Below, in pieces: positions 38,252 through 40,920 of a stretch of DNA of 42,964 nucleotides; position 1 is the first letter of the stretch; each line of letters starts with the position of its first letter. The DNA lies in NCBI GenBank assembly GCA_003169735.1, contig PNAP01000090.1, positions 1 to 42,964 of the forward strand, given 5' to 3'. Origin of the DNA: Chloroflexota bacterium. GTDB lineage: Bacteria; Chloroflexota; Limnocylindria; Limnocylindrales; CSP1-4. The notes beneath the pieces were generated by a model. It did not search any database, was not told the DNA's origin, and worked only from the letters and a program-made list of their open reading frames with translations. The translations under genes were made by a program, and so were the position numbers.

Positions 38252-38327
38252 TGGCGCGCCCGGCGGGACTCGAACCCACGGCCTTCTGCTCCGGAGGCAG
38301 ACGCTCTATCCGCTGAGCTACGGGCGC
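38252..38327 (-). tRNA. tRNA-Arg (anticodon CCG)
   Basis: 76 nt including an encoded CCA. Acceptor GCGCCCG/CGGGCGC, D-stem GCTC/GAGC, anticodon stem TCTGC/GCAGA with loop CTCCGGA (anticodon CCG, reading CGG), variable AGGCC, T-stem GTGGG/CCCGC with loop TTCGAGT. All stems pair, with one G-U in the T-stem. It lies between udgB (convergent) and the NHL lipoprotein gene. Confidence 0.97.
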
Positions 38328-39833: not shown

Positions 39834-39861
39834 AAACGGCCCCGCCGAAGCGGGGCCGTTT
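39834..39861 (-). terminator. Strong terminator with UUCG tetraloop
   Basis: Read on the minus strand, AAACGGCCCCGC, loop TTCG and GCGGGGCCGTTT: a perfect 12-bp stem closed by C(UUCG)G, the very stable tetraloop. The flanking A/T bases end the stem with UUU. On the opposite strand the loop would be CGAA, so the minus orientation is the designed one. Confidence 0.9.
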
Positions 39862-40005
39862 GCACTGTCCCGGCCTTAGCCGACGAAGCAAGCTCCGCCG
39901 GTTCTGCCACGCCACAAGGGCATCTATCACGCCGGCTGCACCGGCTACCCTAACCCGACCTACCCATGACCTTGTGCCTGGGGCAGTCGTGCTGACGAGC
40001 AGCAC
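39834..40005 (-). ncRNA. Candidate structured small RNA of about 170 nt
   Basis: On the minus strand a promoter (TTGAGG 40041-40036, 18-bp spacer, TAGACT 40017-40012) predicts a start at about 40005, and the UUCG terminator ends at 39834. The 5' end folds at once into GTGCTG-CTCGT-CAGCAC (40005-39989). A long-range helix follows: CTGCC (39986-39982) with GGCAG (39908-39904), and CACAAGGTCAT (39976-39966) with ATGCCCTTGTG (39923-39913), 10 of 11 pairs. Inside it is GCCGG/CCGGC, and after it a 10-bp stem CCGGCGGAGC/GCTTCGTCGG. It lacks the SRP, tmRNA and RNase P core motifs, and I do not recognise it. It could also be the 3' untranslated region of the cyclophilin gene. Confidence 0.5.
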
Positions 40006-40011
40006 CGGACC

Positions 40012-40041
40012 AGTCTAACCGAACCCCTGCCCCCGCCTCAA
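40012..40041 (-). promoter_or_regulatory. Promoter of the candidate small RNA
   Basis: TTGAGG (40041-40036), an 18-base spacer and TAGACT (40017-40012), each matching four of six consensus positions; the predicted start coincides with the first base of the 5' hairpin. Confidence 0.5.
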
Positions 40042-40047: not shown

Positions 40048-40104
40048 ATGCCTTCTCCAGAGTTAACATTCCGCAACTTCCGTTTCGGACGGACACCGAC
40101 CTCG

Positions 40105-40920
40105 TCAGGGGCGGGTGACCGTGACGCTGGTCATGGTCACCGGCTGCAGCGGGAGCTGATTGCTGTCGGTCTGTACTGCGGCGATGGCATCCACCACGTC
40201 CATCCCGCTGACGACATTGCCGAAGATCACGTAGCCGCCGCTCTTGTCGAGCTGGGTGCGCAGATCGTCCAGGCAGATGAAGAACTGCGACCCCTGTGAG
40301 TTCGGTGCCGACGTTCGTGCCATGGCCACAACGCCACGCAGGTAATCGCCGACGACGGGCTCGTCGGGGATCGCGTAGCCCGGTCCACCGGAACCGTCGC
40401 CGGCAGGATCGCCGCCCTGGATGACGAAGCCCGGCACGATGCGATGGAAGGTCAGGCCGTTGTAGAAGCCGGCGTTGGCGAGGTTGATGAAGTTCTCCGA
40501 CGCGACCGGCGCCGACTGGTTGTAGATCTGGATGGTGATATTGCCCAGATCGGTCTGGATCGTCGCCATCGTGCCGTCGCCGCCGGGCGCTGCCGGCGAG
40601 CTGGCAAGCGGAGTGGCGTCCGGGGCGTGGATCGCGGCCGTGTTGATCGTCGTGGTCGGTGAGTGGACGGCGACCAGGGACGGCGACGGCGAGGCGCCCG
40701 CGCCGCCGGAGTTCGCGTAGAGATAGAGCAGGCCACCGAGGACGACCACTGCCGCCACAGCGGCGGAGATCCAGAGCAGCGGGTTGTTGTTGCGCCGCGC
40801 CGACGGCGGCGCCATGCTGCCGCGTCCGGTCGTCCCGGTTGCGCCGCGCGAGAACCCGGGCCGGTAGTTGTCCGCCGACGGCGTGTGACTGCGCGTGACG
40901 GTCCGTCGCCGCTTAGCCAT
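40105..40920 (-). CDS. Membrane-anchored cyclophilin-type peptidyl-prolyl isomerase
   Basis: 271 residues. There is an N-terminal basic cytoplasmic segment (about 1-45), one membrane helix (LLWISAAVAAVVVLGGLLYLY), a Ser/Pro/Ala linker, then the cyclophilin domain from about residue 117: MATIQTDLGNITIQIYNQSAPVASENFINLA, GFYNGLTFHRIVPGFVIQGGDPAG (catalytic Arg in FHRIV), GVVAMARTSAPNSQGSQFFICL and VIFGNVVSGMDVVDAI. It catalyses proline cis-trans isomerisation of exported proteins. The tryptophan near the cyclosporin site is absent, as in many bacterial members. It begins 8 bp after the HisA-like gene; GAGGGG precedes the ATG. Confidence 0.95.
   Translation of the reverse strand: MAKRRRTVTRSHTPSADNYRPGFSRGATGTTGRGSMAPPSARRNNNPLLWISAAVAAVVVLGGLLYLYANSGGAGASPSPSLVAVHSPTTTINTAAIHAPDATPLASSPAAPGGDGTMATIQTDLGNITIQIYNQSAPVASENFINLANAGFYNGLTFHRIVPGFVIQGGDPAGDGSGGPGYAIPDEPVVGDYLRGVVAMARTSAPNSQGSQFFICLDDLRTQLDKSGGYVIFGNVVSGMDVVDAIAAVQTDSNQLPLQPVTMTSVTVTRP

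Follow-up and report, generated by a model that had tools for sequence, protein, structure and literature searches.

A probable stand-alone structured RNA gene with a near-invariant internal loop in part of Ca. Limnocylindria (Chloroflexota)

Outside the ribosome, SRP, RNase P, tmRNA and 6S RNA, single-copy RNAs as conserved in sequence as the one described here are rare, and for 6S RNA it is the shape, rather than the loop sequence, that is conserved. Closer in standing are Chloroflexi-1 (RF01698) and the other orphan structured RNAs (PMC2864571), which are likewise lineage-restricted and of unknown function, though no such model matches the RNA considered below. In the window, by which we mean the whole 42,964-nucleotide stretch of DNA that was analysed, positions 39834 to 40041 of the minus strand hold what is very probably a genuine RNA gene, judging from sequence comparison, and one that stands alone as a structured unit between a cyclophilin gene and an NHL-repeat gene. 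The RNA, its promoter, its hairpins and the flanking cyclophilin gene all lie on the minus strand, and the parts are as follows, in window coordinates.

40105–40920, minus strand: cyclophilin-type peptidyl-prolyl isomerase gene (PF00160, E = 1e-46), the conserved upstream neighbour, outside the RNA
40062–40077, minus strand: upstream element GTTGCGGAATGTTAAC, 16 bp and partly palindromic, about 60–65 nt 5' of the inferred start, from the homolog alignment
40036–40041, minus strand: -35 box TTGAGG, from the sequence, with an 18-nt spacer to the -10 box
40012–40017, minus strand: -10 box TAGACT, from the sequence, its TANNNT kept in homologs
39989–40005, minus strand: 5' hairpin P0 (GTGCTG..CAGCAC), from segment folding, near the inferred RNA start
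39980–39987, minus strand: P1 5' arm ACUGCCCC, partnered with 39864–39871 across an internal C-A mismatch, with GGCAG at 39904–39908 as alternative partner
39966–39978, minus strand: P2 5' arm, partnered with 39911–39923, from double-sided changes and a tree-aware test
39945–39965, minus strand: G-rich strand of the internal loop, GGGUAGGUCGGGUUAGGGUAG, near-invariant, its last G pairing in P3
39931–39945, minus strand: P3 hairpin with loop UGCAG, double-sided changes in 4/5 pairs
39924–39930, minus strand: opposite strand of the internal loop, GUGAUAG, with invariant alignment positions 55, 58, 60 and 61
39911–39923, minus strand: P2 3' arm, from covariation and the tree-aware test, as for the 5' arm
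about 39873–39904, minus strand: variable hairpin P4, present in family f1 and missing in f4
39864–39871, minus strand: P1 3' arm GGGACAGU, from pairing counts in f1 rows
39834–39861, minus strand: terminator hairpin with a perfect 12-bp stem and UUCG loop, from folding and homolog loci
38252–38327, minus strand: tRNA-Arg(CCG), a recurrent downstream neighbour, separated from the RNA in the window by the NHL gene

A sequence-only reading of this gap had described a promoter, a 5' hairpin, a long-range helix, internal hairpins and a 12-bp terminator with a UUCG loop, and we could place every one of these on the minus strand. The P0 hairpin begins about 6 nt 3' of the -10 box, and the terminator ends in three T only, all of them inside the stem. 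The fold energy is mildly unusual (z = -2.1), and because such energy alone is weak evidence, the case for the gene rests on conservation and covariation.

To place the RNA among described families, the window and the homologs were searched with all 4227 models of Rfam 15 at gathering and at relaxed thresholds, a check that the sequence-only reading had itself proposed. None of the models matched the RNA, and the only matches returned were tRNAs and chance or terminator matches. Among the last, istR (RF01400) and RsmY (RF00195) gave weak sub-threshold matches that come from the CCCCGC-UUCG-GCGGGG terminator, with scores far under gathering, while the core of the RNA went unmatched. A sequestering RNA of the CsrB/RsmY type also differs in its GGA repeats, which are absent here, so that the likeness to RsmY stops at the terminator hairpin. 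A search of the literature at hand for RNAs of Limnocylindria returned nothing.

SRP RNA (RF00169) and RNase P RNA (RF00010) are, like the new RNA, housekeeping-like, single-copy and conserved, yet genomes that have it hold a separate gene for each of them. A separate RNase P RNA was found in all 24 genomes tested, the window's own included (contig C97), and a separate SRP RNA in 22 of the 24, or 22 of 23 when the window's own genome is set aside. In that genome no small SRP RNA was found, which would be the one argument for reading the locus as a diverged SRP RNA, though nearly all tested relatives have one and the lack is probably an assembly gap. Neither RF00169 nor, for tmRNA, ARAGORN gave a match at the locus, which agrees with the earlier judgement that SRP RNA, tmRNA and RNase P RNA do not fit. 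With separate SRP RNAs in those 22 other genomes, most of which hold the new RNA as well, the chance that it is a diverged form of SRP RNA, RNase P RNA or tmRNA is negligible.

The distribution of the RNA was traced in two steps, with f1 to f5 used as working labels for families of the class Ca. Limnocylindria. When 101 relatives were searched at the DNA level, 77 had matches, ranging from the same genus to the same class (a few to the terminator only), and 50 core sequences (alignment A3) were built into R1, a covariance model that spans the 72-nt core. Using R1, the RNA was found in 121 of 177 genomes of Ca. Limnocylindria, almost always as a single copy. Together with the compensatory changes in P2 and P3 presented below, this bears out the earlier proposal of a structured small RNA that has a promoter and a terminator to itself, for which a lack of conservation and compensatory change in relatives had been named as the refuting outcome; both are present. 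Across a set of 400 genomes of the phylum, R1 matches were confined to families f1, f2 and f4, and the RNA was not found outside the class. Families f3 and f5 gave no RNA with R1, also with laxer filters, and with filters off the regions around their cyclophilin genes yielded chance-level scores only, so the RNA is either absent from these two families or diverged beyond detection. The homologs come mostly from metagenome-assembled genomes, and the R1 searches covered genomes of Chloroflexota; a plasmid collection scanned by BLAST and a viral collection scanned by pattern held no match.

Named carriers include Chloroflexi bacterium CSP1-4, a Lake Baikal genome and Ca. Aquidulcis, which NCBI taxonomy places in class Ca. 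Limnocylindria of the Chloroflexota. Most genomes of the Ca. Aquidulcis lineage, which are about 1 Mb in size, carry the RNA, and its retention there counts for function, since non-essential sequence is usually lost from genomes of this kind. Within the RNA family the DNA identity is roughly 80–93%, and the adjoining cyclophilin protein is 50–59% identical in named relatives. Some f1 genomes lack the RNA, but five of seven such genomes tested also lack a cyclophilin match, and several homologs abut a contig end or are truncated by it, from which we infer that many of the f1 absences are probably assembly gaps. Metagenome contigs (for example G004, G008, G459, G463 and G480, and loci L034 and L041) often stop in or beside the RNA, a behaviour also seen at rRNA genes, and near-identical sequence between coexisting strains is the probable cause. 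The presence counts would then be underestimates.

The two central helices, P2 and P3, carry the clearest signal of selection for pairing. Across 71 distinct core sequences, their positions pair in 95.6% of cells, against 82.4% when shuffled, and changes on both sides occur in 13 of 17 pairs (9/12 in P2 and 4/5 in P3). On the model-fitted alignment of these 71 sequences, the covariation score is 0.418, compared with 0.169 for shuffled alignments and at most 0.072 for slid partners, and on the unfitted alignment A3 it is 0.349 against 0.151. Under a tree-aware null, in which each column's inferred changes are redistributed over the tree, E < 0.05 is reached by 8 of the 18 proposed pairs if testing is confined to them and by 1 of the 18 if it extends to all 2556 pairs, and the two top-scoring pairs overall are both structure pairs. 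The CACAAGG/CCTTGTG helix of the sequence-only reading falls inside P2 and is thereby strongly supported, while the CAU/AUG end of P2 is invariant, so its pairing carries no covariation signal. The P3 loop reads UNNAG in f1 and f2 and is a GNAA tetraloop in f4.

The closing helix P1 (CUGCCCC/GGGACAG) pairs at 7 of 8 positions in 51/51 f1 rows, with an end pair that is A-U, G-U or G-C. The internal C-A mismatch (window positions 39983 and 39868; columns 6 and 136 of alignment A1) is kept in 51/51 f1 sequences, and a U-C mismatch is found at the same site in f2. An alternative pairing, CUGCC/GGCAG, fits f1 nearly as well; the CTGCC/GGCAG helix proposed earlier is thus compatible with this family, but it competes with CTGCCCC/GGGACAG for the same arm. 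The P1 5' arm may then alternate between two conserved 3' segments, as a possible switch.

More conspicuous than any helix is the loop between P2 and P3, in which GGGUAGGU(N0-2)GGGUNAGGGUA lies opposite GNGANAG and which is nearly invariant over the 71 distinct sequences. The loop is asymmetric, with about 20 nt in the G-rich strand against 7 nt in the other. All G of the four G runs are invariant in 71/71 sequences, as are G, A, A and G at opposite-strand positions 55, 58, 60 and 61, and the second linker of the G-rich strand varies by 0–2 nt (1 to 3 nt long). A conserved small ORF from the AUG in CAUGGGUAGG was considered and rejected, since these 0–2 nt indels break the frame between families. 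The families differ at many stem positions while the loop stays nearly the same, which speaks for a binding site or a tertiary core rather than a scaffold.

Four invariant G runs could also stack as a G-quadruplex within the loop and serve as a switch or ligand binder, and the pattern GGG-UA-GG-U(N0-2)-GGG-UNA-GGG, with its variable second linker and a free position in the third, would suit such an element. We nevertheless regard it as doubtful, given that the quadruplex model of ViennaRNA predicts none in the homologs folded, whether free or with P2 and P3 fixed, and that most linker bases are invariant too, beyond what a quadruplex requires. The same G-rich strand could instead pair with mRNAs, making the RNA a base-pairing regulatory sRNA. 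Its own promoter, its terminator and its 5' hairpin are typical of sRNAs, and a long unpaired strand is at hand, but the candidate seed is G-rich and lies inside a constrained internal loop with an invariant opposite strand, and we think this reading unlikely.

At its 5' side, the gene has a predicted promoter that is of the sigma-70, housekeeping type. The pattern TTGNNN-N17/18-TANNNT is present in 75 of 88 f1 and in 17/17 f4 homologs and was not found at f2 loci. In f2, the streamlined Ca. Aquidulcis lineage (loci L133–L143 and L302–L308), a conserved GGGGGTTGGAAT lies upstream in place of the usual promoter. The upstream element takes the form GTKAA-N6-TTMAC in relatives and is kept in f1 and f4, with regex matches in 47/88 and 5/17 loci, respectively. 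Its position is typical of an activator site, and the copies in some relatives bear a likeness to an ECF-sigma -35 (GGAAC/T) as well. The window's genome has one other site at two mismatches or fewer, where it overlaps a kinase-like reading frame at the frame's end; this lone second site is probably chance, and a regulon was rejected. As for the hairpins at and near the ends, the P0 stem is kept with differing sequences in many homologs, the P4 segment folds as a hairpin in 80/84 f1 homologs and is missing from those of f4, and a perfect terminator stem of at least 8 bp occurs in 67/82 f1, 17/17 f4 and 1/17 f2 loci.

The RNA lies 3' of a cyclophilin gene of the same direction in nearly all loci examined, and with a terminator at its end, this placement would suit a cis-acting element, either a 3' UTR of the cyclophilin mRNA or a riboswitch-terminator for the gene that follows. 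However, a promoter of its own separates the RNA from the cyclophilin gene, and the downstream genes vary in family and orientation and often face the opposite way (neighbours were taken from crude longest-ORF calls, in which single assignments can err). Because of this variation in both family and direction, the RNA is not the leader of one fixed downstream gene, and a cis-acting role is very improbable. A tRNA-Arg(CCG) is found downstream in many f1, f2 and f4 loci. On the other side, the cyclophilin gene of f1 genomes recurrently has a gene for a DUF885 protein upstream of it (PF05960; 41636–42946, minus strand, in the window, where a HisA-like gene stands between the two).

What we propose, then, is a non-coding RNA of about 170 nt whose own promoter, past the end of the cyclophilin gene, would start its transcription and whose intrinsic terminator would stop it. 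It would fold into a protective 5' hairpin (P0), the closing helix P1, a stem of P2, internal loop and P3, and the variable hairpin P4, with the near-invariant asymmetric loop as the presumed working part. Here, P2 and P3 would hold the loop in a shape ready to bind a partner, most likely a protein (or a small ligand), and the RNA, acting in trans, would be either a sequestering RNA or the core around which a ribonucleoprotein is built. Protein or ligand binding by the loop is a mechanism for which we consider the case evenly balanced, and the evidence does not separate a protein from a small-molecule ligand or an RNA target. Should there be a protein partner, the result would be a new bacterial ribonucleoprotein. 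With the alignment, boundaries and helices in place, this can be directly tested in lake metatranscriptomes and in vitro.

Of the RNAs named at the outset, 6S RNA calls for the closest comparison. It shares with the new RNA a length of about 170–190 nt, a single copy, an own promoter and a stem with a large internal loop. Of 201 sampled Chloroflexota, 43 have an Rfam 6S match; none of the 43 belongs to Ca. Limnocylindria, and 41 relatives gave no match either, an apparent loss or strong divergence in families f1 to f5. The 6S role may therefore be vacant in the class, and P2, loop and P3, as a stem with an open loop, could act as an open-promoter mimic that holds RNA polymerase. Three 6S loci of other Chloroflexota have no cyclophilin gene nearby and so show no link by synteny. 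We hold a functional stand-in for 6S to be improbable, as the RNA does not match RF00013, and f3 and f5 are without both RNAs by these models. The architectures differ as well: 6S is a single long hairpin with a central bubble, shut by pairing between the two RNA ends, whereas the new RNA combines a 5' hairpin with a three-way junction (P1/P2/P4 in f1), its ends being occupied by P0 and the terminator rather than paired together, with P4 as an interrupting side hairpin and with P2 and P3 short (12 and 5 bp). Moreover, a conserved loop sequence is the opposite of what 6S displays.

What remains noteworthy is that the RNA is kept in streamlined freshwater genomes of about 1 Mb, in a class of free-living organisms without detectable 6S. 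Speculatively, and at less than even likelihood, it could be a housekeeping-like RNA of part of Limnocylindria whose invariant G-rich loop makes an RNA binding site of a new type, perhaps with a quadruplex between flanking helices of the sort seen in artificial fluorogenic aptamers, and thus a ribonucleoprotein or global regulator without counterpart in other bacteria that may fill the missing 6S role. The sequence-only reading had left the choice at 6S-like or new: the former fails on the missing Rfam 6S match, the other architecture and the near-invariant loop sequence, and the latter fits better, with the broad kind, an orphan lineage-specific structured RNA, already known and this family of it new.
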